Shown here one piece after another: positions 1 to 12,878 of a DNA stretch of 12,878 nt. The stretch's first letter is position 1, and the number at the start of each line of letters is the position of its first letter. The translations under genes were made by a program, and so were the position numbers. Source of the DNA: Tannerellaceae bacterium (lineage in GTDB: Bacteria > Bacteroidota > Bacteroidia > Bacteroidales > Tannerellaceae); contig JAISRY010000058.1 of the NCBI GenBank assembly GCA_031273385.1, positions 1 through 12,878 on the forward strand, in the 5' to 3' direction. Under the pieces are notes generated by a model. It ran no database searches and was not told the DNA's origin. It was given only the letters and a program-made list of their open reading frames with translations.

Positions 1-16
1 TTTATAATTAGCAAGT

Positions 17-595
17 ATGGAAAAGTCTTTGAAAGGTACTCGTACCGAGCAGAATTTATTGAAGTCGTTTGCCGGTGAATCGCAGGCAAGAAACCGCTAT
101 ACGTTTTTTTCGAGTGTAGCGAAGAAAGAGGGTTACGAACAGATCGCCGCTGTGTTTATGGAAACAGCCGAACAGGAAAAGGAACATGCCAAACGGTTCT
201 TCAAGTTTCTTGAGGGCGGGATGGTTGAGATCACCGCCTCTTTCCCTGCCGGGGTAATCGGCACCACCATGGAGAACCTGGCTGCCGCCGCTGCGGGGGA
301 GAACGAAGAATGGACGGAGCTCTATCCCACCTTTGCCGCCATAGCGGAAGAGGAGGGCTTTAAGCAGATAGCCGTAGCCTGGCGCATGATCTCTCTGGTT
401 GAGAAAGAGCATGAAAGGCGTTACCTCAAACTGCTGGAAAACCTGGAAAGGAGTCAAGTGTTTGAGAAAGAGGAAGAGATAGAATGGCAATGCCGTAACT
501 GCGGCTTCCTGCATAAAGGGAAGAAAGCCCCCAACAAATGCCCGGCCTGCGAACATCCGCAAGCATTCTTCGAGCCTAAGAAAGAAAACTATTGA
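17..595 (+). CDS. rbr: Rubrerythrin (diiron peroxidase with rubredoxin domain)
   Basis: This 192-residue protein has the usual rubrerythrin length and layout. Residues 1-150 form a ferritin-like four-helix domain with the expected diiron ligands: Glu21, the ExxH pair Glu54/His57, Glu95 and Glu98 in the GENEEW stretch, and the second ExxH pair Glu129/His132. Residues 157-185 form a rubredoxin-like Fe(Cys)4 centre with Cys159/Cys162 and Cys175/Cys178. Family knowledge: these cytoplasmic enzymes reduce hydrogen peroxide to water with electrons passed through the rubredoxin domain, protecting anaerobes from oxidative stress. The ATG at 17 aligns with the family N-terminus (MEKSLKGT). Only 16 bases precede it, so its promoter lies outside the window, and no Shine-Dalgarno sequence is visible. 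It converges on the next gene, with 15 bp between the two stop codons. Confidence 0.97.
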   Translation: MEKSLKGTRTEQNLLKSFAGESQARNRYTFFSSVAKKEGYEQIAAVFMETAEQEKEHAKRFFKFLEGGMVEITASFPAGVIGTTMENLAAAAAGENEEWTELYPTFAAIAEEEGFKQIAVAWRMISLVEKEHERRYLKLLENLERSQVFEKEEEIEWQCRNCGFLHKGKKAPNKCPACEHPQAFFEPKKENY

Positions 596-610
596 CAGCC
601 CGGCCTTCCT

Positions 611-2065
611 TTATTTCTTGCCGTATGTCACACCCTGCCAGTCGTCCGTGCGGAAAGGCGAAGCGGGTAATTGTGTGCCGTTGGAAAGGTTGCATGCCGG
701 ATTATCCGCCCATGCATACCTGACGGCGACAGGAAAGGAGACCTCCGGAGACGAAACGACCACCGTATTGCCGTCGATCACTGCGTCCGCCCAATGGAAC
801 GTATGATCGACGCCGGCAATGGCGAATCCTTTCAGCGGCTCGCCGCCCTTTGCCTGTAACCCCCCGTTCGTATGCTTGAAGAAGAGGCGTATCCTGTTCC
901 CCTCGATGGTGTATGATTCGTAGGCGGGGCCTGAATAGTCGATCTTTTCCCCGTAGGTATTCGCTCTTGCGGCCAATGCCAGGCGTCGCCCTACGTCCTG
1001 TTTGTTCTTCGGATGGATATCGTCGGCATCACCGATATCAATGGTGACGGCCATTCCGGTGTTGCTGAGGTGCAGGGTCTTTTGTTGCGCCTCCCTCAGT
1101 TCGGCCCATGCCGACTCGGCCGGTTCGGCCACCGGTTTCATGTAATTGGCCAACTGGACGAAATAGAACGGAAAGTCATACCCCCACTGTTTTCTCCAAT
1201 CGGTGATCATCAGCGGGAATAGCTCGCGGTATTGATAGGCGCGGCCGGCATTGGCTTCGCCCTGATACCAGATCGCCCCCTTGATGGTATACGGGATAAG
1301 GGGATGCAACATGGCGTTGTACAGCAGGGTAGGGCGGTTCGGGTTCTTATCCTGCCCGGGCGTCATGGCGGCAACGGCTTTTATCGCTTCGGTAAACTCT
1401 TTCATCGCCTCCAGCGATTCACGGCTTGTCCACGTTTCGGCGATCGTACCTCCCCATGAGGTATTGATCAGGCCGATGGGAATATGTTGCGACTGGTGGA
1501 TGCTGCGCCCGAAAAAGTAACCTACAGCGGAGAAATCGGGTACGGTGGCGGGAGAACAGACCTGCCAACCGTTGCCGGCGGCCTTGATATCGTTCAGGGG
1601 CGTAGGGCTGACCTCTTTCTCAATCTGCAAAAAGCGGATGTCCGGGTAGGCGGCATCCTTTATCTCCTCCTCATAGTTGTTCACCTTGCCCCATCCAAGC
1701 ACCTGCATCTCCATATTCGACTGCCCGGAGCAGATCCATACGTCCCCGGCCATGACGTTGTTTAGCTTGATGGTTTTCCCGGAAGAAAGGGTGATCGTAT
1801 ACGGCCCGCCGGCTACCGGCGTCTGTATTTCCACTTTCCAGAAGCCTGTCGGATCGGCTGTCTGGCTGTAAGTCTTGTTATCCCACGACGTGGTGATACG
1901 TACCGTTTTACCTGCTTTGGCCTTTCCCCAGACGGGGACGTTCGCCTGTTGTTGCAGTACCATATTGTCGGAGAAAACCGGGGATAACTCGATCTGGGCG
2001 GACAATTCTGCCGTCCAGAGCAGGCACAGAGCGCTTAGGAATAAAAGTAAATGTGTGTGTTTCAT
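611..2065 (-). CDS. Secreted SGNH/SASA-family carbohydrate O-acetylesterase (sialate O-acetylesterase-like)
   Basis: This 484-residue protein starts with a Sec-type signal peptide (basic start, hydrophobic run at residues 5-19, probable cleavage after the Ala of LSA-Q near residue 23), so it acts in the periplasm or at the cell surface. A beta-rich domain (about 24-105) precedes an SGNH hydrolase fold. The nucleophile block is SGQSNM (113-118, Ser116), followed by WGGT (203-206), WYQGEAN (265-271) and the DDIHP block (347-351) with the probable catalytic His350. This matches the SASA/DUF303 family annotated as sialate O-acetylesterase, which removes O-acetyl groups from sialic acids; other members deacetylate plant glycans, so the substrate is uncertain. 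No glycosidase, transporter or SusC/D gene lies nearby to suggest one. It has its own -7 box 26 bp upstream. The stop is TAA. Confidence 0.92.
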   Translation of the reverse strand: MKHTHLLLFLSALCLLWTAELSAQIELSPVFSDNMVLQQQANVPVWGKAKAGKTVRITTSWDNKTYSQTADPTGFWKVEIQTPVAGGPYTITLSSGKTIKLNNVMAGDVWICSGQSNMEMQVLGWGKVNNYEEEIKDAAYPDIRFLQIEKEVSPTPLNDIKAAGNGWQVCSPATVPDFSAVGYFFGRSIHQSQHIPIGLINTSWGGTIAETWTSRESLEAMKEFTEAIKAVAAMTPGQDKNPNRPTLLYNAMLHPLIPYTIKGAIWYQGEANAGRAYQYRELFPLMITDWRKQWGYDFPFYFVQLANYMKPVAEPAESAWAELREAQQKTLHLSNTGMAVTIDIGDADDIHPKNKQDVGRRLALAARANTYGEKIDYSGPAYESYTIEGNRIRLFFKHTNGGLQAKGGEPLKGFAIAGVDHTFHWADAVIDGNTVVVSSPEVSFPVAVRYAWADNPACNLSNGTQLPASPFRTDDWQGVTYGKK

Positions 2066-2090
2066 GGCTTAATCGTTTTAGAATACGCCA

Positions 2091-2098
2091 CAAATATA
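2091..2098 (-). promoter_or_regulatory. Bacteroidetes -7 promoter box (TATATTTG) for the esterase gene
   Basis: Reading the minus strand, TATATTTG fits the Bacteroides sigma consensus TAnnTTTG and ends 26 bp before the esterase ATG. It lies in the 48-bp gap after the DUF4296-like gene, so the esterase can be transcribed separately from the upstream operon. I see no clear -33 TTTG. Confidence 0.55.
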
Positions 2099-2113
2099 GT
2101 TTTTTTATTTGTA

Positions 2114-2899
2114 TCAGGGAATGGAATCCGTTAAATGTTTGATGGCTTCGGATCCGTAGTTGTATTTGACCAGGTTCAGGTTGTCCAGGTATACCTTATG
2201 ATAGCTGGCATCGGCATTGTCCATGCGGATATATCCATGTATGCTGCGTACCTGTTTTGTCGGGATACCCCTCAGGATGGTTTCGTGATAACCGTCGGCG
2301 GTTATCTTCCGGTGTACGGACAGCGTGGTGTCTACCTGGTCGATCGCCAGATGGACTTCGGGAGTAAAACGCATCGCTCCGGTCAGCCCCCAGACATGCA
2401 TCCCTAAAACGAAAGAGCTGCCGGACGAGTAGTTGATGTCCGGCTTTATGTTGAACGTCACCCCGTTGAACAGGGCGCCGGGCTGGAGGATCAGGAAATC
2501 GCGGCGCGGCCAGATATCGACCGAGTCCTGGTTGGACGTGGGCGCGGCGCTGGCCTGTATGTCGCCCATGCTCCGGATATGTTCGTCGACGTTCGCCAGC
2601 GCCAGCGCCAGCACGTCGATGTAAATATCCAGGTTCTTGCCATACCATACCAGCGAACTGTCGTATACGGCCTGCGTTATTTTATGTTTCTTGAAAACGG
2701 ACTGGTATAAAGCCTCTTTGCGTGCGGCGTCGGCATAGTCGGCATAGCTTGTCTGGATCATCGCCTCCGCCAGTTGCATGTCAACCAGCACCGCCTGCAT
2801 CTTTTTTTCAGGTAGAACCCCGCTTGGCACTTTACTGCAAGCCACCGGTAAAAGGGTAGCCAATAAAGCAATACTGTATTTATACAGTCTCTTCCGCAT
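2114..2899 (-). CDS. DUF4296-like lipoprotein
   Basis: This 261-residue protein begins MRKRLYKY, followed by a short hydrophobic stretch and a lipobox (LPVAC, lipidated Cys21), so it should be a membrane-anchored lipoprotein. Residues 24-115 (PSGVLPEKKMQAVLVDMQLAE onward) resemble the Bacteroidetes DUF4296 family: a helical region with the pattern for repeated YQSVF/KKHKIT-type segments. The rest (about 120-261) is beta-rich and unassigned. The function is unknown. The frame stays open back to 2977, but the ATG at 2899 is preferred because it opens directly on the lipoprotein signal and has AAGGGG about 9 bases upstream. With this start it overlaps the end of lspA by 20 bp, which suggests translational coupling. 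It is last in the ileS operon. LspA, encoded just upstream, would process its signal peptide. Confidence 0.82.
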   Translation of the reverse strand: MRKRLYKYSIALLATLLPVACSKVPSGVLPEKKMQAVLVDMQLAEAMIQTSYADYADAARKEALYQSVFKKHKITQAVYDSSLVWYGKNLDIYIDVLALALANVDEHIRSMGDIQASAAPTSNQDSVDIWPRRDFLILQPGALFNGVTFNIKPDINYSSGSSFVLGMHVWGLTGAMRFTPEVHLAIDQVDTTLSVHRKITADGYHETILRGIPTKQVRSIHGYIRMDNADASYHKVYLDNLNLVKYNYGSEAIKHLTDSIP

Positions 2900-3521
2900 C
2901 TTCTTTCCCCTTATCTTTGGATAGGCAGTTTGATAATGTACGGCGATAGAACAGAAAGAGGATGAATACGCCGACACAGATGGCCGAATCGGCTAAATTG
3001 AAGATCGGGCGGAAAAAGACAAACTCGTTGCCCCCCCATACGGGCAACCACTCCGGCAGGGTAGTCTTGATCAGGGGAAAGTAAAACATATCGACCACTT
3101 TCCCGTGCAGCCACGTGGCATAGCCCCCGCTTTCGGGCATGAACGAGGCCACCTGCCCGAAGCTATGGTCAAAGATCACGCCATAAAAGATGGAGTCGAT
3201 GATATTCCCGATCGCGCCGGCAAAGATCAGGGCTACGCAGGCGATAAACCCGAAGCGGAAATTCTTCTTTGTAAACGTATACAGGTAGTACCCGATAAAG
3301 CATACGGCCACGATACGGAAGAGGGACAAAAACAGTTTGCCGATCACCTCCAACCCGAACGCCATCCCCGGATTCTCCGTAAAGTAGATATAAAACCATG
3401 GCGTGACCTGTATGCTCTCACCCAGTACCATGTGCGTTTTGACCCATATCTTCAACGCCTGGTCAAGAATAAGGAGCAGCATGATGATCAATGCCGCTCC
3501 CCCGCTTTTCGAACAGCTCAT
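2880..3521 (-). CDS. lspA: Lipoprotein signal peptidase (signal peptidase II)
   Basis: This 213-residue inner-membrane aspartic protease cuts the signal peptide from prolipoproteins after the lipobox Cys is diacylated. Four hydrophobic spans lie at about 8-26, 60-82, 92-112 and 176-192. Conserved blocks are the first-helix Asp (LLILDQ, Asp20), FTENPGMAFG (48-57), AGAIGNIID (101-109), VVDMF (142-146, probable catalytic Asp144) and FNLADSAICVG (174-184, probable catalytic Asp178). The GNxxDR block reads GNIIDS. The extended loop of about 25 residues between GNIID and VVD, and the longer total length compared with about 165 residues in E. coli, fit Bacteroidetes LspA. GGAGG lies 10 bases before the ATG. 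The gene abuts the DksA-like gene directly (stop at 3522, start at 3521), so the two are surely cotranscribed. Confidence 0.96.
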   Translation of the reverse strand: MSCSKSGGAALIIMLLLILDQALKIWVKTHMVLGESIQVTPWFYIYFTENPGMAFGLEVIGKLFLSLFRIVAVCFIGYYLYTFTKKNFRFGFIACVALIFAGAIGNIIDSIFYGVIFDHSFGQVASFMPESGGYATWLHGKVVDMFYFPLIKTTLPEWLPVWGGNEFVFFRPIFNLADSAICVGVFILFLFYRRTLSNCLSKDKGKEDAEETV

Positions 3522-3902
3522 TTATTTTGCACCTCCCTGTTTGGCCTCTATACTCAACGTCGCGTGAGGGACTGCCCTCAGCCTCTCTTTCGGGATTAGT
3601 TTTCCGGTTTCCCGGCATACGCCGTATGTCTTGTTTTCGATACGGATCAAAGCGGCCTGCAGGTTCTGGATGAACTTCATCTGACGCTGCGCAAGGCGTC
3701 CGGCTTCCTCTTTGGATAATGTGGCGGCGCCCTCTTCGAGTACCTTAAACGTGGGCGACGTATCGGAGACATCGTTTCCGTCTGAGTTCGTCACGCCGGC
3801 TCGCAGCAGGTCGTAATCCGTTTTCGCCATCTCCAGCTTCTCCAATATGATAGCGCGGAACTCTTCTAATTCTGCATCCGAATATCTTGTTTTCTCTGCC
3901 AT
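3522..3902 (-). CDS. DksA/TraR-family regulator with degenerate zinc finger
   Basis: This 126-residue cytoplasmic protein has the DksA/TraR layout. A helical coiled coil (about 8-92) has a tip motif Asp44-x-x-Asp47-x-Ser49, comparable to the DxxDxA tip of E. coli DksA. A C-terminal finger region (94-122) reads YGVCRETGKLIPKERL followed by RAVPHATLSIEAK. Only one of the four zinc-binding Cys positions remains (Cys96), so the finger is probably metal-free and held by packing. Family knowledge: DksA-like proteins enter the secondary channel of RNA polymerase and tune transcription during stress, often with ppGpp. Whether this short form does so is inference. It sits 44 bp after ileS and touches lspA, so it belongs to the same operon. 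No Shine-Dalgarno sequence is seen before its ATG. Confidence 0.9.
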   Translation of the reverse strand: MAEKTRYSDAELEEFRAIILEKLEMAKTDYDLLRAGVTNSDGNDVSDTSPTFKVLEEGAATLSKEEAGRLAQRQMKFIQNLQAALIRIENKTYGVCRETGKLIPKERLRAVPHATLSIEAKQGGAK

Positions 3903-3946
3903 GGTTCAATAACTTTTAATTTTATACTTCTATTTTTATTCTTCAT

Positions 3947-6900
3947 TCACGCTTTATCTATCCTGATCGACAAATTAAAGGCTTCAAAATCCAGTAGCGC
4001 CGCATCGCTCAGGATATCCACCACCTTGATGGAGACGGCCAGCACCTGGTTTTTGATATACTCTTTATATGCCTCGATCACCTCGTCCATCTCTACGGAG
4101 GAGAGGATGTGTATTTTCACTTTATCCGTAATATCATACCCGCTGCTTTTGCGCAGGTTCTGGATACGGTTCACCAATTCGCGCGCCAACCCCTCCCGCC
4201 GGAGTTCGTCCGTAACGGTAATATCCAGAGCAACCGTTAGTTGTCCCTCGTTTGCGACCAGCCATCCCGGGATATCTTCCGATACCACCGCGGCGTCGTC
4301 CTGCTCGATGACCGCTTCCTGCCCCTCTATCTGGAACGTAAACCGCCCCGTCGATTCGAACGCCAGGATATCTTCCGCCCCCATCAGCCGGATGGCTTCG
4401 GCCAGTGGCTTCATGATTTTCCCATACCGCGGGCCGAGCTTCTTAAAGTCGGGCTTCACCTTCTTGACAAGGATACCGGCGGAATGATCGACAAATCTCA
4501 GCTCTTTGACATTGACCTCGTTCAGGATCAGGTTTTTTACGGCTTCGATATGCTCCTGCTGGTTGACGCTTGCTACCGGAATCATAATGGTTTGCAACGG
4601 CTGGCGTACCTTGATATTCACTTTCCGGCGGAGCGCCAGGATCATAGAGGAGATATCTTGCGCCATCTTCATTCGCTCTTCCAGTGTTTTGTCGATAAAT
4701 GCCTCATCGTAAACGGGGAAATCCGAGAGGTGGACAGAGGCCTTTGTCTCCCGTCCGGTCACAGCCGTCAGGTCGCCATACAGCCGGTCGGCATAAAAGG
4801 GCGATATGGGCGCCATCAGTTTGGCCACCGTTTCCAGAGCGGTATACAGGGTCTGATAGGCGGACAGTTTGTCCTGTGTCATGCCTCCCCCCCAGAAGCG
4901 GCGGCGGTTTAAGCGGACATACCAGTTGCTCAGGTTGTCGTTCACAAATTCCGAAATGGCGCGTCCCGCACGTGTCGGCTCATAATCCCCCAGGTAGCCG
5001 TCCACCTCTTTTACCAGGCTGTTCAGCAGGGAGAGTATCCAGCGGTCTATTTCAGGGCGTTGGGCATAATCGACCTCCGGCTCGGCGTAGGTAAACCCAT
5101 CCACATTGGCATAGAGCGCAAAGAAAGAATAGGTATTATATAAGGTGCCGAAAAACTTGCGGCGTACCTCTTCCAGCCCGTCAATGTCAAACTTGATATT
5201 ATCCCACGGCGAGGCATTCGAAATCATATACCAGCGCAACGGGTCGGAGCCATGCTGCTCGATCGTCGCGAACGGGTCGACCACATTCCCCAACCTTTTG
5301 GACATCTTATTCCCGTTCTTATCCAACACCAACCCGTTTGAAACGACTGTTCTGAACGATATGCTGTCGAACGCCATCGTCGATATCGCATGGAGCGTAA
5401 AGAACCATCCGCGCGTCTGGTCTACCCCCTCGGCAATAAAATCGGCGGGGAAAACGGCCTGCCGGTCAAAGGCCTCTTTATTCTCAAACGGATAGTGGAT
5501 CTGGGCATAAGGCATCGCCCCCGAATCAAACCATACGTCGATCAGGTCTGCTTCGCGTTTCATCGGCTTACCGCTTGGCGAAACCAGGATGATATCATCC
5601 ACATACGGGCGGTGCAGGTCGATCCTGCCGTAGTTTTTCTCCGTATAGTCGCCCGGGAGGAAATCCCTGTAGGGATGGGTTTCCATCAGTCCGGCTTCGA
5701 CGGATTTCCCGATCTCCCGATATAACTCTTCGACCGAACCGATACATATCTCTTCGCTTCCGTCCTCCGTCCGCCAGATAGGTAGGGGAGTTCCCCAATA
5801 ACGGCTACGGCTCAGGTTCCAGTCCTGCAGGTTTTCCAGCCATTTGCCGAAACGCCCCGTTCCGGTACTCTGCGGCTTCCAGTTGATGGTGTTGTTCAGC
5901 TCGATCAGCCGGTCGCGGTAGGCGGTTGTCCGGATAAACCAGCTGTCCAGCGGATAATACAGCACCGGCTTATCCGTGCGCCAGCAATGCGGGTAGCTGT
6001 GTACATGTTTTTCGATACGGAAAACGCGGTTTTGCACCTTTAGCATCATACAAAGGCTCACGTCCAGTGTCTCGTCGCTGTCGGAGAGGTTCGCGTCGTA
6101 GTCGTTCTTCACATAACGGCCGGCAAAGGGATCGTAGTCCGCCGCGCTCATCCTGTCCTGCACAAAAACAGGGTCAAGGTCTTCCAGCAGGAAATATTTC
6201 CCCGTCAGGTCGACCATCGGGCGCCGGTTGCCCTCCTTATCCGACAACATCAGGGGAGGCACGCCGTTTTGCTTGGCTACGCGGTCGTCGTCGGCGCCAA
6301 AAGTAGGGGCGATATGCACAATACCCGTCCCCTCCCCGGTCGTGACGAAGTCTCCCGCTATGACGCGGAACGCCCCCTCGCCGGGGTTCACCCACGGGAA
6401 AAGCTGTTCGTATGTGATACCCACCAGCTCGGCGCCCGTCCATTCGGCGACAATCCGGTAGGGAAGCAGTTTGTCCCCCTGTTTGTAGGCGGACAGCTCA
6501 AGGCCCTCCGCTTTCGGTTGAAAATAGGCCGGCACCGAATCTTTCGCCAATACGGCGGTGATGGGCATTCCGGTATAGGGGTTGAATGTCTGTACGGCAA
6601 CATAGCGGATATCCGCCCCGACGCATAGCGCCGTATTGGAGGGCAGCGTCCACGGCGTGGTCGTCCATGCCAGGAAGAAAGCCTCCCCGTGAAGCGTCAT
6701 CTCCGGTTTGGGTGTCAGGATAGCGAACTGGGCGGTACAGGAGGTGTCTTTCACGTCGCGGTACGTCCCCGGCTGGTTCAATTCGTGCGTACTCAACCCT
6801 GTCCCCGCTGCCGGCGAATAGGGCTGGATCGTATACCCTTTATATAAAAGGCCTTTTTTGTACAACTCTTTCAGCAGGAACCAGAGCGTTTCGATATACC

Positions 6901-7366
6901 GGTTGTCATACGTGATATAGGGATCGTTCATGTCTACCCAGTAGCCCATTTTCTCCGTCAGGTCTTCCCATTCCTTCGTATATTTCATGACCGCTTTGCG
7001 GCAGGCGGTATTGTAATCGGCGACAGAAATCTTTTTGCCAATATCCTCTTTCGTTATACCCAACTCTACTTCCACTCCCAACTCAACGGGCAGCCCATGC
7101 GTATCCCATCCTGCCTTACGCTTCACCTGAAACCCTTTCATGGTCTTATAGCGGCAGAAGATATCCTTTATCGAGCGGGCGATCACATGATGGATACCCG
7201 GCATACCGTTGGCCGACGGCGGCCCCTCATAAAAGACGAATGACGGCGAACCCTCGCGGATCTCAAGGCTCTTCCGAAAGATATCGCCATCGCGCCACTT
7301 CTTCAGTATTTCCTTGTTAATGCTCGATAAATCAAACTCCGAATACTCGGCAAATTTCTTGCTCAT
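3947..7366 (-). CDS. ileS: Isoleucyl-tRNA synthetase, IleRS2 type with GIHH signature
   Basis: This 1139-residue class I synthetase attaches isoleucine to tRNA-Ile. The ATG at 7366 is chosen over an in-frame GTG at 7372 because AAGGAG (7377-7372) fits the ATG with 5-base spacing and would overlap the GTG. From this start, PPSANGMPGIHHV spans about 49-61 with the HIGH-equivalent residues Gly57-Ile58-His59-His60. The CP1 editing domain (about 200-400) contains TTTPWTLPSN and TGIVHIAPTFGADD. DWNLSRSRYWGTPLPIW is near 515-531, DQTRGWFF near 649-656 and KMSKR at 687-691. An anticodon-binding region and a long C-terminal extension follow. The PPSANGxPGIHH context and the length fit the eukaryote-like IleRS2 class rather than IleRS1. 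It is the first gene of a four-gene operon and has its own promoter box. Confidence 0.97.
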   Translation of the reverse strand: MSKKFAEYSEFDLSSINKEILKKWRDGDIFRKSLEIREGSPSFVFYEGPPSANGMPGIHHVIARSIKDIFCRYKTMKGFQVKRKAGWDTHGLPVELGVEVELGITKEDIGKKISVADYNTACRKAVMKYTKEWEDLTEKMGYWVDMNDPYITYDNRYIETLWFLLKELYKKGLLYKGYTIQPYSPAAGTGLSTHELNQPGTYRDVKDTSCTAQFAILTPKPEMTLHGEAFFLAWTTTPWTLPSNTALCVGADIRYVAVQTFNPYTGMPITAVLAKDSVPAYFQPKAEGLELSAYKQGDKLLPYRIVAEWTGAELVGITYEQLFPWVNPGEGAFRVIAGDFVTTGEGTGIVHIAPTFGADDDRVAKQNGVPPLMLSDKEGNRRPMVDLTGKYFLLEDLDPVFVQDRMSAADYDPFAGRYVKNDYDANLSDSDETLDVSLCMMLKVQNRVFRIEKHVHSYPHCWRTDKPVLYYPLDSWFIRTTAYRDRLIELNNTINWKPQSTGTGRFGKWLENLQDWNLSRSRYWGTPLPIWRTEDGSEEICIGSVEELYREIGKSVEAGLMETHPYRDFLPGDYTEKNYGRIDLHRPYVDDIILVSPSGKPMKREADLIDVWFDSGAMPYAQIHYPFENKEAFDRQAVFPADFIAEGVDQTRGWFFTLHAISTMAFDSISFRTVVSNGLVLDKNGNKMSKRLGNVVDPFATIEQHGSDPLRWYMISNASPWDNIKFDIDGLEEVRRKFFGTLYNTYSFFALYANVDGFTYAEPEVDYAQRPEIDRWILSLLNSLVKEVDGYLGDYEPTRAGRAISEFVNDNLSNWYVRLNRRRFWGGGMTQDKLSAYQTLYTALETVAKLMAPISPFYADRLYGDLTAVTGRETKASVHLSDFPVYDEAFIDKTLEERMKMAQDISSMILALRRKVNIKVRQPLQTIMIPVASVNQQEHIEAVKNLILNEVNVKELRFVDHSAGILVKKVKPDFKKLGPRYGKIMKPLAEAIRLMGAEDILAFESTGRFTFQIEGQEAVIEQDDAAVVSEDIPGWLVANEGQLTVALDITVTDELRREGLARELVNRIQNLRKSSGYDITDKVKIHILSSVEMDEVIEAYKEYIKNQVLAVSIKVVDILSDAALLDFEAFNLSIRIDKA

Positions 7367-7401
7367 ACTCACTCCTTATCTATGATTCTAAAAAATTTCC
7401 A

Positions 7402-7432
7402 CAAAGGTAGTTCTTTATTCTGAATAATGAAA
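7402..7432 (-). promoter_or_regulatory. Promoter of the ileS operon
   Basis: On the minus strand, TACCTTTG (7409-7402) matches the Bacteroidetes -7 consensus TAnnTTTG. A TTTC (7432-7429) sits 19 bases upstream where TTTG would be expected for the -33 box. The -7 box ends 35 bases before the ileS ATG. Both elements and the spacing fit known Bacteroides promoters. Confidence 0.7.
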
Positions 7433-7467
7433 TACCTGCATCGTTGATCATGACACAAAGTGGAAAT

Positions 7468-7528
7468 TATCATTTTGTCATTTTCCCGCCGGATTTTTTT
7501 TGCGAAACGGCGAAATGACAAAATGATA
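7468..7528. repeat. Long imperfect inverted repeat (hairpin)
   Basis: TATCATTTTGTCATTT (7468-7483) is the exact reverse complement of 7513-7528, a perfect 16-bp pair. After a 3-base bulge (7484-7486), CGCCG (7487-7491) pairs with CGGCG (7508-7512), leaving a 16-base loop. The element starts about 60 bp upstream of the ileS promoter box. It could fold in RNA or DNA, or bind a dimeric regulator. Confidence 0.8.
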
Positions 7529-7718
7529 GTTTTATCACTCCTAAACTCTCTGAGAATCGGCTGTATCGCCCCGCGGGACGAGCCGCTTCCAAATATGGCG
7601 GAAAAACGGGGGTTAAGGAGGTATGTTTTGCCGGCATATATGAATGATTATAAGGCACAAAACCGCTCATTTTGCCCCTTTAAAGTGGAGTGGCGTTTTG
7701 GAGCAATTTTGCCGTTAA

Positions 7719-7731
7719 ATTTTGTCATTTT
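7719..7731 (+). repeat. Third copy of the ATTTTGTCATTTT word
   Basis: This 13-bp string is identical to 7472-7484, which lies in the left arm of the nearby hairpin. The octamer ATTTTGTC also occurs inverted at 7517-7524 and 7945-7952. A related 13-mer, TTGTCATTTCGCC, is at 7892-7904 and inverted at 7509-7521. The spacer is therefore built from related words. Confidence 0.6.
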
Positions 7732-7787
7732 AATCTTTGTAAACGCGCGATTAAGACTTGCTAACAAAACATCCGAAGCTCTCCGGA

Positions 7788-7870
7788 AAATCATCTGGAT
7801 GATGTCCGGACATCATCTGGAATACTTCAGAAATCATCAAGATGATGTCGGAACATCATCCAGGTGATTC
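7788..7870. repeat. Tandem pair of palindromic units (GATGATGT / ACATCATC)
   Basis: Unit 1 contains GATGATGTCCGGACATCATC (7798-7817), a perfect 20-bp palindrome. Unit 2 has GATGATGT (7841-7848) and ACATCATC (7853-7860) around a 4-base centre CGGA. The two units align over 30 positions with 26 identities at a 43-bp offset, both beginning AAATCATC (7788 and 7831). The outer flanks CGGAAAATCA (7784-7793) and TGATTCCG (7865-7872) are also roughly complementary. Confidence 0.8.
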
Positions 7871-8355
7871 CGAACAATTTTCTGAGAATCGTTGTCATTT
7901 CGCCCGAAACAGCGGAATGCCCCTCCAAAAATAGAGAAAAATTCGACAAAATGCAAAAAATACGCCTCTGCCGAAAAAGCCGTTTTCTTTACAAAATGTC
8001 ATAAAAATCCCCTTTTCAGTAACTATTTGTATTTTCAAAATGTCGGAATCACGTTTGCTTTTTGCTGTGCCGGCGGTAGTTGTCTGAATCAGAATTTTCA
8101 GGATTATAGAATGGACAGAATGAAGCAATTGAAAATGACGGGTACCACTGTCGTTATAATGACGACGAATCATAATCGTGTGAAAATCAACGCTATCGCC
8201 GCCATTTCCACTTGTTTAAACTACCTGTTTGTTCTGCACATATTAATATATCCGAAACAAAGACTTAGATCTTCTGCAACAAAATGCTTCATGTTTCAGA
8301 AGAAAAAAATAGATAATACGGGTATGATTTATGCATGGTATATCCAATTGTTTCA

Positions 8356-8363
8356 TAACTTTG
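8356..8363 (+). promoter_or_regulatory. Bacteroidetes -7 promoter box (TAACTTTG) for the PstS-like/helicase pair
   Basis: TAACTTTG matches TAnnTTTG and ends 31 bp before the ATG of the lipoprotein gene. The -33 box is unclear; only a TTTA near 8328 lies upstream, at poor spacing. Its position argues against the open frame 7892-8398 being a gene. Confidence 0.55.
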
Positions 8364-8394
8364 TTGTGATACTGTTTAATCCATTAAAGATGAT

Positions 8395-9354
8395 ATGAAA
8401 ATGAGGAACTTAAGGTTGTTAACGCTCTTGCTTTGTCCTATCTTTTTTGCTTGTGATAAAGAAGCGGAAGATATTCCATTCGTTGGTTTGGAAGAGGTGG
8501 AAGTCGAAAATTATCCTATCGTGGATGGTTCGACATCTACTGACCCATTAAACAAACTGTTGGTTTGTAAGCTTTTAGGCTTCGATTACAGATGGGAACG
8601 GGCAATGTTTATGAATGGCTTGTGGTATTTATGGAACAATATTCCTGCTGAATTTGTGACCAAACATCTTAAATCCTCTCAAACACACCAGGCTTTTGTC
8701 AATTTGATTGATGGAGAGGCAGAAATTATTCTCACTGCACGAAAAATGTCGCCGGACGAGAAAGCGTATGCCGAAAAAGCAAAGGTTTCCCTGATCGAGA
8801 CGCCTATAGCGCTTGATGCCTTTATATTTATCGTGAATGTCGAAAACCAAATAGAATCATTGACAACAAAGCAGATACAGGATTTTTATACAGGTAAAAT
8901 AACGAATTGGAAAGAGGTCGGAGGCGCTGACAGTCCGATCAATCCATACGTGAGAAACCCCAATTCGGGTAGTCAGGAACTGATGGAATCAATGATTATG
9001 AAAGAGTTGGATATGCCGGATTGGGACGTGGAATGGAGTTCTGAGGCCATACCGAGTATGGACTTGGCATTTGTCCGTATTGTGAATAATATCAATGGTC
9101 TATGCTATACGGTTTATTACTATAAAGAACAGATAGTAAGGGATGAGCTTTCGGTTAGGCACATTGCCGTCGATGGTGTCTATCCGGACAAAAACACCAT
9201 AAAAAACCAATCATACCCCTACGTAGCCGAAGTATATGCCGTTATCCGCAACAACCTGGACAAAAGCTCAATGGCCTATAAATTATATCAATACCTCCAA
9301 ACAGAAGAGGGCAAAGACATTATTTCAGAGAGTGGATACATACCTATATTATGA
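8395..9354 (+). CDS. PstS-like solute-binding lipoprotein
   Basis: This 319-residue protein has a lipoprotein signal: a basic start, a hydrophobic run and a lipobox ending at Cys20 (PIFFAC), so it should be anchored in a membrane and face the periplasm or surface. The mature part resembles the type II periplasmic binding fold of phosphate-binding PstS proteins: VDGSTST (43-49), a TARKMSPDE block (115-122), then LTTKQIQDFYTGKITNWKEVGG (156-177) and a PNSGSQE block (189-195). Those Ser/Thr-rich loops hold phosphate in PstS. No pstC, pstA, pstB or phoU gene is near, so it may bind a different ligand or act as a sensor. The ATG at 8401 is an alternative start. Its stop overlaps the next start by 4 bp (ATGA), implying a shared mRNA. 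The gene is more AT-rich than the ileS operon. Confidence 0.85.
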   Translation: MKMRNLRLLTLLLCPIFFACDKEAEDIPFVGLEEVEVENYPIVDGSTSTDPLNKLLVCKLLGFDYRWERAMFMNGLWYLWNNIPAEFVTKHLKSSQTHQAFVNLIDGEAEIILTARKMSPDEKAYAEKAKVSLIETPIALDAFIFIVNVENQIESLTTKQIQDFYTGKITNWKEVGGADSPINPYVRNPNSGSQELMESMIMKELDMPDWDVEWSSEAIPSMDLAFVRIVNNINGLCYTVYYYKEQIVRDELSVRHIAVDGVYPDKNTIKNQSYPYVAEVYAVIRNNLDKSSMAYKLYQYLQTEEGKDIISESGYIPIL

Positions 9355-12299
9355 CTGAATCTGAATGGCAAAAACGCATAGCGGAATTAGAGGCTCAGAA
9401 CGCTGCTTTGACGGAGGAAAATAAAAAGCTGCGGGAAGCGTTGGGCTTGCCATCCAGGGCGGTTATGGCCGGAAAACAGGAGGAAACCGTATCTATACAG
9501 CACGTCGAAATTCAAGATGATGACACGGAAAAAGAGGCCATCCCGCCTGTTAACAAATACAGCTCCCCCGAAGAAAAGATTGAACTATTCATGTCATTAT
9601 TTCGAGGGCGAACGGATGTGTATGCAAAACGCTGTTATAGCAAGAATTACGACAGCAGTTATTATATCCCGGCCTGTAAAAATGAATGGGTACGGGGCGT
9701 TTGCGAAAGGCCGCGTGTCAAATGCAAAAATTGCACGAAAAGGGAACTCCTGCCATTTACCAAAGAGGTGATTGATCAGCATTTACGCAACAAAGACGAA
9801 CAAGGGAACGGCATTATAGGCGTTTATCCGCTTTTACGGGATGAGACTTGCCTGTTTTTGGCTGTCGATTTTGATGATGAAAGCTGGCGGAAAGATATTG
9901 CCGTTTTCCGCGCCGTTTGTGAAGAGCTGAAAATTCCAATAGCGATAGAACGCTCACGTTCAGGGAATGGCGGTCATGCCTGGCTGTTTTTTGAAGAACC
10001 CGTATCTGCCCTGTCCGCCCGAAAACTGGGCAATGCTTTGCTGACAAAAGCGATGTCCGTCAGGCATGAAATACGCTTTGCCTCATACGACAGGATGTTT
10101 CCGAATCAGGATTTTATGCCTAAAGGCGGTTTCGGAAACCTGATCGCTTTGCCTTTGCAAGGCGGAGCAAGGCAAAGGGGAAACAGTGAATTTATTGACG
10201 AAACATTCCGACCCTATCCCGACCAATGGGCTTACCTGGCCTCTATCAGGAAGATAAGCGGAGAGGAGATCCAACAATTACTCGCCGGCCTGTGCGAAGG
10301 AGATGGCTTGGGTTTACTTGCAGATACGGAAACAGGCGATGAGGATCATCCCCAACTTCATCCTCAACTATGGGAAGCTAAAAAGCCGGAAATAAACCTC
10401 GTAAGCAAAGATTTCCCGGATAAATTGTGTATTATTGAGGCGAACAGGCTGTATGTCCCTAAAAATGGAATCAGTCAGCGGGCGCTCAATCGAATCAAAC
10501 GGCTTGCCGCCTTTCAAAATCCGCTGTTTTATAAAACGCAGCGTATGCGCATGTCCACATTCAATATTCCACGCATTATTTATTCGTTGGCCGAAACGCC
10601 TGATTATTTGGGTATTCCACGTGGATGCCGCTCATCGCTCGTCCATCTATTAGATGACGCCAAAATAGACTATGTATTTGATGATAAGCGGAATAGGGGA
10701 AAGAAGATTAAGGTCGCTTTCCTCGGAACGCTTCGCGAAGAACAACTGTTTGCCGCCGATGCCCTACTCCAACATGAAAACGGCGTATTATCCGTGCCGA
10801 CGGCCTTTGGAAAAACGGTTATCGGCGCATCACTCATTGCCGGGCGGAAATGCAATACCCTAATATTGGTGCATTTACAAACATTATTCGATCAATGGAA
10901 AAAGTCGTTGGAGCAATTCCTCCACATAGACGAAGTGTTGCCGGAGATGGAGCATAAACGGGGACATAAAAAGAACCGTTCTATTATCGGGCAATTGGGT
11001 TCAGGCAAAAACACGCTCTCCGGTATTATAGATATAGCGCTCGTACAGAGCTTGATCCATGACAACGAAGTGGATGAAACGGTCAAAAATTACGGTATGG
11101 TCATTGTGGACGAATGTCATCATGTCCCTTCTGTGAACTATGAAAAAGCGCTTGGCGCCGCAAATGCCCGGTATGTCTATGGATTGACGGCGACGCCGGT
11201 TCGACAGGACGGGTTGCACCCGATTACGTTTATGCATTGCGGAGCAATACGTTATGCCGTAAATGCGAAGCAGCAGGCGGCAAAGCGGGATTTCGAACAC
11301 TATGTGATGCCCTGTTTTACCGGATTCAAAAAGCCGCTGACACAGGATGAGGCGAATTGGCATATCACCCAGGTCTATTCAGCGCTTGTAGAAGACGATG
11401 TGCGTAATCGCCAGATAGTTGCCGATGTAATAGATGCAGTAGGCGCCGGGCGAACACCCATTATCCTTACCCAGCGGACAGACCACGTATCCGCTTTAGC
11501 TGATTTGCTTAAAAATCAATGCAATGCTCATGTCATTACGCTTATTGGCGCAGGTTCGGCGAAGCTAAAGCGCGAAACGATGCATACGTTGGAAAATATC
11601 CCTCAAAATGAACGATTAATCATCGTTGCGACAGGAAAATATGTAGGCGAAGGCTTTGATTATCCAAGGTTGGATACCCTGTTTTTGGCGACACCCATAG
11701 CGTGGAAAGGCACATTGGCACAATATGCAGGCCGTTTGCACCGCGATTATCCCGGCAAACAGGATGTGATTGTGTATGACTATGTTGACATCCATATTCC
11801 GGTGTTGGAACGCATGTATCACAAACGGTTGGCCGGATACGCACAGATAGGGTACAAAACGATAGCGACACGAAACCAGCCGGATAAAATCAATACGATT
11901 TATGATACAACCAGCTTTGTCCCGGTCATAAAAAATGATTTTGCCGGCGCAAAGAAAGAGATCCTGATAGTCAGCCCTTTCATCCGGAAAAAACGTGTCG
12001 AAACCATCCTCGAATGGCTGAAAGAACCCTTGAAAACAGGCGTGACGATTACCGTCATTACAAGACCGGCAGAACAGAAAGAAAAAGGCCACGTAACGGC
12101 ATGCCTGGATGACCTGCAGCGCCATGGCATCACCACCATCCAAAGAAGCAACATACACCAGAAATTCATCCTCATCGACGATAAACTCGTATGGTACGGA
12201 AGCGTCAATCTCCTAAGCTTCGGACGCGCTGAAGAAAGCATGATGCGCCTGGATTCAAGAGAAATAGCCGCCGAATTAGACACGATGATCCGGCGGTGA
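9351..12299 (+). CDS. Primase-helicase-PLD nuclease fusion (TOTE-type conflict protein)
   Basis: This 982-residue protein joins several modules. Residues 5-32 form a leucine-rich coiled coil. Residues 70-310 resemble an archaeo-eukaryotic primase: a Cys cluster (Cys109, Cys118, Cys125, Cys128), the metal-binding DFDD (173-176), SGNGGHAW (204-211) with the SxxxxH-type motif, and YDRMFPNQ/GFGNLIALPLQ (246-270). Residues 455-815 are an SF2 helicase: RxxQ (462-465), Walker A PTAFGKT (483-489), DECH (587-590), TATP (613-616), VGEGFDYP (765-772) and QYAGRLHR (791-798). Residues 865-980 form a phospholipase-D-type domain with one HxK(x4)D motif (His936, Lys938, Asp943) and GSVN (950-953). All catalytic motifs look intact. 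Family knowledge: Pfam, as I recall, calls this primase the TOTE conflict system primase. A role in defence against foreign DNA is inferred. The start overlaps the upstream stop by 4 bp. Confidence 0.9.
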   Translation: MTESEWQKRIAELEAQNAALTEENKKLREALGLPSRAVMAGKQEETVSIQHVEIQDDDTEKEAIPPVNKYSSPEEKIELFMSLFRGRTDVYAKRCYSKNYDSSYYIPACKNEWVRGVCERPRVKCKNCTKRELLPFTKEVIDQHLRNKDEQGNGIIGVYPLLRDETCLFLAVDFDDESWRKDIAVFRAVCEELKIPIAIERSRSGNGGHAWLFFEEPVSALSARKLGNALLTKAMSVRHEIRFASYDRMFPNQDFMPKGGFGNLIALPLQGGARQRGNSEFIDETFRPYPDQWAYLASIRKISGEEIQQLLAGLCEGDGLGLLADTETGDEDHPQLHPQLWEAKKPEINLVSKDFPDKLCIIEANRLYVPKNGISQRALNRIKRLAAFQNPLFYKTQRMRMSTFNIPRIIYSLAETPDYLGIPRGCRSSLVHLLDDAKIDYVFDDKRNRGKKIKVAFLGTLREEQLFAADALLQHENGVLSVPTAFGKTVIGASLIAGRKCNTLILVHLQTLFDQWKKSLEQFLHIDEVLPEMEHKRGHKKNRSIIGQLGSGKNTLSGIIDIALVQSLIHDNEVDETVKNYGMVIVDECHHVPSVNYEKALGAANARYVYGLTATPVRQDGLHPITFMHCGAIRYAVNAKQQAAKRDFEHYVMPCFTGFKKPLTQDEANWHITQVYSALVEDDVRNRQIVADVIDAVGAGRTPIILTQRTDHVSALADLLKNQCNAHVITLIGAGSAKLKRETMHTLENIPQNERLIIVATGKYVGEGFDYPRLDTLFLATPIAWKGTLAQYAGRLHRDYPGKQDVIVYDYVDIHIPVLERMYHKRLAGYAQIGYKTIATRNQPDKINTIYDTTSFVPVIKNDFAGAKKEILIVSPFIRKKRVETILEWLKEPLKTGVTITVITRPAEQKEKGHVTACLDDLQRHGITTIQRSNIHQKFILIDDKLVWYGSVNLLSFGRAEESMMRLDSREIAAELDTMIRR

Positions 12300-12465
12300 A
12301 AAAAGACATGCATTAACTTAGTATTGCCGGTGCTGATAAGATAGAGTGTAAAAACTAATAGAACTTCTTGAAACTTCGAGATTCTTCAAAAATCAAGAAG
12401 AATTAAAAAAGAAGTTATATCTTTGTATTTTAAAACTATTGATGACATTTAATATGTAATTGATT
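12300..12465. other. Intergenic gap with short inverted repeat upstream of the Fic gene
   Basis: CTTCTTGA (12364-12371) and TCAAGAAG (12393-12400) are perfect 8-bp inverted arms separated by 21 bases. ATTCTTC (12381-12387) can alternatively pair with GAAGAAT (12397-12403). The right arm ends 17 bp before the -7 box at 12418, so the repeat lies where an operator could act. No T-run follows on the plus strand, so it is a poor terminator for the helicase gene. Confidence 0.4.
12418..12425 (+). promoter_or_regulatory. Bacteroidetes -7 promoter box (TATCTTTG) for the Fic gene
   Basis: TATCTTTG is an excellent match to TAnnTTTG and ends 40 bp before the Fic ATG. No -33 TTTG is seen at the normal spacing, which may mean the promoter needs an activator. 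It suggests that Fic is transcribed separately from the helicase. Confidence 0.6.
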
Positions 12466-12878
12466 ATGTTGGAACACCCGCCCATAGCAACCGAACAGGA
12501 AGAGTTTAATTCCGTTCAATTGGCTTTTACAACTGCAATTCAGCAGATAAACGCCGAATATCCTTATTGGAATAAGGTTAAATATCTGGAAACCAAAGAT
12601 AAGCATGACAAAAAAACTATTTGGTTTGCCTTGAAATTTTTGCGCCAATTAAACAGAACAGTTTTGACATTTGGGAAATATCAATTCAGTTACACGGTTA
12701 CAGACGAGATGTTTGAATTGCTACACTATTTCGATATGAATATCGGTGGCGGTTTGGCAAGTGAAAATCTAATTCCAAACGAAAACAAAAATCGTTACCT
12801 CGTATCGTCGATTATGGAAGAGGCGATTGCTTCGAGTCAAATGGAGGGTGCCGCCACTACGCGAAAAGTTGCCAAAGA
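12466..12878 (+). CDS. Fic-family protein, N-terminal part (class II autoinhibited), cut by the window end
   Basis: A frame opens at ATG 12466 and is unbroken to the window edge: 137 codons plus 2 bases. An in-frame TAA at 12457 lies just upstream, so this is the natural start region. The N-terminus is helical. The stretch RYLVSSIMEEAIASSQMEGA (110-129) matches the N-terminal inhibitory helix region of class II Fic proteins, with the motif (S/T)xxxE(G/N) as Ser123-x-x-x-Glu127-Gly128. In the family, that Glu blocks productive ATP binding until it is released. The catalytic HPFx(D/E)GN(G/K)R motif would lie beyond the window, so AMP transfer to a target Tyr, Ser or Thr is expected but not seen. 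Targets are unknown. It could be a stress, toxin-like or defence protein. Confidence 0.85.
   Translation, partial: MLEHPPIATEQEEFNSVQLAFTTAIQQINAEYPYWNKVKYLETKDKHDKKTIWFALKFLRQLNRTVLTFGKYQFSYTVTDEMFELLHYFDMNIGGGLASENLIPNENKNRYLVSSIMEEAIASSQMEGAATTRKVAK

Follow-up and report, generated by a model that had tools for sequence, protein, structure and literature searches.

The window analysed here, a 12,878-nucleotide stretch of DNA from a Tannerellaceae bacterium (assembly GCA_031273385.1, contig JAISRY010000058.1, positions 1 to 12,878), carries a gene that fuses an AEP primase-polymerase (PrimPol), an XPB/UvsW-like superfamily 2 (SF2) motor and a phospholipase D (PLD) fold in a single chain. 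Comparison of this fusion protein with its relatives revealed that the catalytic sites of the primase and of the motor were kept almost without exception, whereas the nuclease site of the PLD domain had been repeatedly lost or remodelled, a moderately surprising outcome in an otherwise conserved three-module enzyme. The fusion gene is accessory and mobile, and it is tentatively read as a horizontally spread, single-gene anti-invader PrimPol-translocase in which the nuclease would be optional. Proteins with its AEP domain, AEP-TOTE, are common and named after a conflict system, and if the PrimPol-translocase defends without cutting, the principle would be different from that of nuclease-based restriction.

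Conserved primase and motor sites and a changing nuclease site

The sequence-only reading had described a primase, an SF2 helicase and a PLD-type nuclease in one chain, and this layout was confirmed, every motif that it named lying at its residue (Table 1). Domain searches assigned the primase to PF22548 (AEP-TOTE, E 1e-97) and returned the PLD domain at E 1.5e-12, and structure comparison bore out both folds. The AEP fold presented a DxD motif, an sxH motif and a third acidic residue; a pairwise alignment put D247, the candidate for the latter, next to the CAPP Glu, with a shift of a single position. The motor presented motifs I, II, III and VI and two RecA folds; its kinship with XPB and UvsW in the structure comparison extended to the part ahead of the motor core, and RadD was also among the proteins resembling it. 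The PLD domain of the window copy preserves HxK(x4)D(x6)GSxN, with one motif per chain. No target-recognition domain was found among the Pfam matches, although a domain lacking a Pfam model would escape such a search. By sequence and structural model, the window copy is an AEP PrimPol fold of CAPP type joined to an XPB/UvsW-type SF2 motor and a PLD fold.

Site conservation was assessed in an alignment of 174 distinct relatives carrying both AEP domain and motor, obtained after removal of 10 identical copies; its rows combined top-scoring homologues and fetched loci, with near kin over-represented. Among the rows with a letter at the given position, D173 and D175 were Asp in 165 of 165, and H209 (168/168), D247 (170/170), K488 (169/169) and D587 (168/168) were also kept throughout, while E588 and R795 were each replaced by Lys in a single row (among 169 and 164, respectively). 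For the tail, 15 of the 174 rows with fewer than 600 core residues were dropped, leaving 159, and a further 35 (duplicates, rows with no tail or with short or odd tails, and further rows without PLD) were removed for the tree, which comprised 118 PLD-bearing and six tail-less rows. The H-K-D triad was intact in 63 of these 118, presented a His-to-Tyr change in 45 and was otherwise changed in 10. On a tree built without the PLD domain, by a quick method that left 28 of 121 inner branches open and with a midpoint root, at least 10 changes occurred among the three triad states and at least eight between intact and non-intact, seven of which were forced by well-supported branches. Most of the Tyr rows (42 of 45) fell inside one well-supported group of 47, whose remaining members were a single H row and four rows with other changes, and Tyr recurred outside this group in P0013 and in L005/P0089; the pair splitting first under the midpoint root, L032/L033, had lost the triad. 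The H form is probably ancestral, because the outer PLD-bearing lineages are mostly of this form. Full-length copies from IMG/VR viral contigs, counted apart from the 118 rows, had an intact HKD motif in L116 and a lost one in L115 and L117.

The Tyr form looks like a remodelled site under selection more than simple decay, because K938, D943, G950 and R966 were kept in all 46 full-tail Tyr rows (K938 and D943 by construction wherever the H and Y classes were set by the triad, a class-free check of the Tyr rows being in agreement) and because these rows mostly co-changed N953 to Gly or Ser, S956 to Asp, E962 to Asp and S963 to Thr. The mean pairwise identity of the PLD domain was below that of the AEP domain and motor both in the H rows (0.57 versus 0.67-0.70) and in the ten otherwise changed rows (0.38 versus 0.66-0.67); therefore, the PLD domain is the faster-evolving part throughout, and its pace rises further in rows that have lost the triad. 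The existence of natural H and Y forms with the same primase and motor makes the need for the nuclease in defence directly testable.

The C-terminal slot also differed in what it held. Among the fetched loci it was occupied by a PLD domain, by no tail or by a tail of ~290 aa, and many relatives had no PLD tail; in L118 (3786-6650) the AEP-motor fusion ended in a DUF559 nuclease domain (4.4e-11) in place of PLD. The ~290-aa extension was observed in L036, L037, L042 and L121, the last judged by its end sequence only, and no Pfam family matched the tails of L036, L037 and L042.

Since the primase and motor sites are near-invariant and the PLD site is not, the essential function would reside in the PrimPol-motor part, with the nuclease optional, and cutting is probably not central to the family because many close relatives have lost the nuclease motif. 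The earlier proposal, in which copying or unwinding of foreign DNA is followed by its cleavage, is not supported as a general mechanism, the triad being changed in 55 of the 118 PLD-bearing rows and the tail being missing from many other relatives.

Spread of the fusion gene and neighbours of its relatives

Among 147 related genomes, 37 gave a match at E<=0.001, of which 23 were weak and mostly helicase-only, and 14, the window's own included, matched better than E 1e-50. No intact copy was present in 17 genus mates (58-99% complete), in line with an accessory gene; one genus mate carried a decayed copy (G016:C235:165-1223, 57% identity, nine in-frame stops), a sign of gain and loss, and another gave only a weak match. 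Across the phylum, the AEP-TOTE domain was present in 25 of 296 genomes, including this one. A protein database yielded 7,987 homologues out of 8,000 scored, some of them perhaps matching the motor alone, and 118 of the best 120 of the 7,987 bore AEP-TOTE.

Matches on plasmids were found in 238 records, 43 of them covering at least 80%; the homologues there were tail-less, and no PLD form was found among the best 30 of the 238 records, none of which extended past residue 874 of 982. Similarly, 868 of 5426 complete E. coli genomes matched a tail-less relative, 681 of them over at least 80% of the gene. A role as a phage replication gene was considered and rejected: none of the 914 matching phage records covered 80%, and the 40 matches listed of these 914 fell within residues 348-850, which correspond to the motor. 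The IMG/VR viral contigs gave no relative when scanned with patterns from the single protein; scanned with alignment A2, they gave 106 relatives. Among the 80 kept, seven (L115-L121) covered the AEP domain and motor, and the match extended into the PLD domain in three (L115-L117).

Defence or toxin-antitoxin genes often adjoin the relatives, and the window shows only a partial Fic-like ORF of such kind. For example, the type IV toxin gene AbiEii was placed directly upstream, with a 9-10 bp gap, in L006, L008, L009, L011 and L027, possibly as a recurring operon; it was identified by Pfam in L006 and L027 and by BLAST clustering with L006 in the others, L008 and L009 being near-copies. AbiEii also lay upstream of L121, AbiEi models matched three of 150 scanned neighbours, and the gene preceding AbiEii in L006 and L008 matched no Pfam family; the AbiEii-fusion arrangement was absent from the window. 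Further neighbours of relatives were HsdR, a type IIG restriction-modification protein, Schlafen-AlbA, HipA, RhuM, AAA_14-DUF4143 and a DNA methylase with a HEF_HK ATPase, and one further plasmid relative adjoined HipA and BrnTA. A type IIG restriction-modification protein in L003 (1946-5473) also has a Y1_Tnp (IS200-like transposase) Pfam match inside its chain.

Known systems and possible roles

According to the available part of PMC8211822, one type of CAPP_A PrimPol combines PrimPol and helicase, a similar architecture is commoner than any other in non-CRISPR CAPP homologues, and homologues outside CRISPR operons typically occur in mobile genetic elements and transposable elements, some in phages. 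The fusion gene differs from both the CAPP_A 'CAPP-Helicase' and the non-CRISPR CAPPs by its additional C-terminal PLD domain, which is unmentioned in the main text of that paper; other AEP families of mobile elements are treated in PMC5862659, whose main text is also without PLD. The link to cas1/cas2 that marks CAPPs was not observed, as none of the nine scanned window ORFs matched a cas gene and the window's own 70%-complete genome yielded no Cas1; Cas1 occurred somewhere in 14 of 20 carrier genomes and was not shown in six.

TOTE stands for TPR, OB, TBP and Effector (PMC12458937, available text, citing Aravind, Iyer et al. 2022), and the fusion gene shares only the effector domain, AEP-TOTE, with these systems. 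TBP was found neither in its own genome (0/1, 70% complete) nor in the 20 carrier genomes (0/20), four control archaea being positive, and neither the nine scanned ORFs of the window (its downstream side being cut by the contig end) nor 20 neighbour proteins of relatives matched TPR or OB. Because only the effector domain is present and TBP was not found in the own or carrier genomes, the fusion gene does not qualify as a TOTE system by that definition, despite its domain name. Among the literature matches listed, PMC12458937 was the only system paper, and its available text holds no experiment on the family.

SauUSI, a Type IV restriction enzyme reported to dimerise through its nuclease domains, to translocate and to shred DNA (7clg; PMC7913695, available text), is the best precedent for an SF2 motor with a nuclease dimer. 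In the structure comparison its motor and PLD both aligned well with the fusion protein, but its PLD is N-terminal (chain residues 2-173) and accompanied by a target-recognition domain, whereas the fusion protein places the PrimPol first and the PLD last. The Mokosh proteins MkoC and MkoB (PADLOC) matched the tail at 1.1e-18 and 1.2e-13, within residues 824-981, leaving the AEP domain uncovered. T4 UvsW and archaeal XPB have the motor fold in common with the fusion protein, and the likeness takes in the region ahead of the core; these are branch or repair helicases not known to carry a primase fusion.

In the anti-invader role tentatively favoured here, the motor, of a kind that handles dsDNA or branches, would engage and move along branched intermediates formed when invader DNA replicates, such as forks or R-loops, as its XPB/UvsW kinship suggests, and the PrimPol, given its CAPP kinship, may prime or extend on the exposed strand and so derail replication. 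The C-terminal nuclease, where active, as is probably the case in the window copy, would nick or break the captured DNA, and it would take two chains to make up one PLD active site, a step suggested by the SauUSI precedent and the single HKD motif. The nuclease would be an add-on that relatives have lost, altered by a His-to-Tyr change, lack or, in one case, have exchanged for a DUF559 nuclease.

The conflict flavour noted from the sequence found support in the defence genes beside many relatives, for which PADLOC matched 211 models over 150 neighbour ORFs of 21 loci (7 of 157 ORFs were omitted for size, several models per protein were each counted and 25 of the 211 models are named), versus 9 models over 69 ORFs of 10 loci around PstS-like genes, a rough control that was unmatched in taxon, counted L107-L109 as separate loci of one syntenic region and included 10 PstS-like genes among its 69 ORFs. 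Several observations weigh against the anti-invader role. The roughness of this control is one of them, as is the presence of AbiEi among its matches; plain neighbours were found in L013 (peptidase), L014 (leucine-rich-repeat protein) and L017 (transporter), and the genes upstream in the window are ordinary chromosomal ones plus a PstS-like gene, with only a partial ORF of sub-threshold Fic_N similarity downstream. Other homologues are placed as would be expected of an element's own gene: the tail-less PrimPol-helicase genes L088, L089 and L090 are each convergent with a tandem tyrosine recombinase trio on alphaproteobacterial plasmids (Rhizobium, Sulfitobacter, Dinoroseobacter), a Pantoea AEP-helicase homologue is flanked by a recombinase and a DUF4158 protein, and tail-less relatives occur in satellite-like YfjI/Gp2 islands of E. 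coli. Since defence genes ride such elements too, the neighbourhood cannot separate a defence gene from an element gene.

These settings, the many matching E. coli genomes and the residence of non-CRISPR CAPP homologues in mobile elements (PMC8211822, available part) would suit a primase-helicase that replicates, repairs or maintains the mobile element carrying it, with the PLD tail as an often dispensable resolving or nicking accessory; this is the main alternative, possible but doubtful. L117 near a relaxase and an integrase, and L121 near an integrase, also speak for it. However, the E. coli islands already have a YfjI protein, the neighbours of PLD-clade loci are varied with no constant replication partner, the window copy has chromosomal genes around it and no visible element gene, and SF2 motors of XPB/UvsW type are not known as typical replicative helicases. 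The sequence-only reading had concluded from the lack of a nearby element that the gene is unlikely to be an element's own; no transposase or integrase matched in the nine window ORFs scanned, but the conclusion is weakened by relatives that adjoin integrases, a relaxase, recombinases or the E. coli islands.

A SauUSI-like restriction enzyme, with cutting by a PLD dimer as the essential step, would agree with the intact HKD motif of the window copy, with the alignment of motor and PLD to a dimeric, translocating and shredding enzyme (PMC7913695, available text) and with the other nuclease in the same slot of L118; it is unlikely in view of a triad intact in just 63 of 118 PLD-bearing rows with at least eight changes on the tree, the many tail-less relatives and the lack of a target-recognition domain among the Pfam matches. 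A host enzyme of damage tolerance or repair, combining the motor with a PrimPol for repriming, is very improbable: the motor does resemble XPB, UvsW and RadD, and PrimPols serve damage tolerance elsewhere, but the gene is patchy and without an intact copy in the 17 genus mates, unlike a core repair gene. It is also improbable that defence proceeds by synthesis, in which case the PrimPol-translocase would be the conserved weapon, priming or copying on captured invader forks and poisoning their replication, while the PLD tail would be turning from a nuclease into a module for binding, dimerisation or regulation, or, in the Tyr clade, into a remodelled active site with Tyr in place of the catalytic His.

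Features and surroundings in the window

Table 1. Positions of the fusion gene, its domains and motifs, and the adjoining ORFs in the window.
Feature	Positions	Strand	Basis or remark
PstS-like lipoprotein gene	8395..9354	+	PF12849; stop overlaps fusion-gene start by 4 nt (ATGA)
AEP PrimPol - XPB/UvsW-like SF2 - PLD fusion gene, 982 aa	9351..12299	+	
N-terminal helix, residues 3-31, possible coiled coil	9357..9443	+	AF2 secondary structure
AEP primase-polymerase domain, residues 71-317; Cys cluster C95, C109, C118, C125, C128	9561..10301	+	
DFD metal motif, D173 and D175	9867..9875	+	alignment of relatives
H209, His of sxH motif	9975..9977	+	alignment of relatives
D247, invariant, candidate third acidic residue	10089..10091	+	alignment of relatives
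XPB/UvsW-like part ahead of motor core, residues 356-455	10416..10715	+	XPB and UvsW alignments begin near residue 356
SF2 motor, residues 456-835; GKT 487-489, DECH 587-590, QYAGRLHR 791-798	10716..11855	+	
PLD-fold domain, residues 850-982	11898..12296	+	
H936-x-K938-x4-D943 motif, intact in window copy	12156..12179	+	
Partial ORF running off contig, possibly Fic protein	12460-12878		weak, sub-threshold Fic_N / DUF4172 matches

The left end of the window is occupied by a rubrerythrin gene, and the minus-strand genes upstream of the fusion gene code for a SASA-type esterase, a DUF4296 protein, a signal peptidase II, a DksA/TraR-type protein and a class I tRNA synthetase with an anticodon domain, which we take to be IleS. 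The contig ends 579 bases past the fusion gene. The nine scanned ORFs, in which transposases, integrases and cas genes had no match, are those of the window other than ORFs 7460-7867 and 7892-8398 and the shadow ORFs. The flanks of the fusion gene held no convincing repeats, either direct or terminal.

The overlapping PstS-like gene was considered as a functional partner and rejected, being unlinked in other loci and followed by varied genes among its own relatives. No relative of it was found beside the fusion-gene relatives in the other loci clustered, and ten PstS-like relatives from other Bacteroidota genomes had downstream genes that were unrelated, on the opposite strand, or not present in the available stretch. 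The PstS-like gene seems to be a resident orphan gene and not a conserved partner, and its overlap with the fusion gene is most likely an insertion junction. In 1-kb windows, the GC content was 50-57% over the ordinary upstream genes versus 38-48% from ~7 kb onward.

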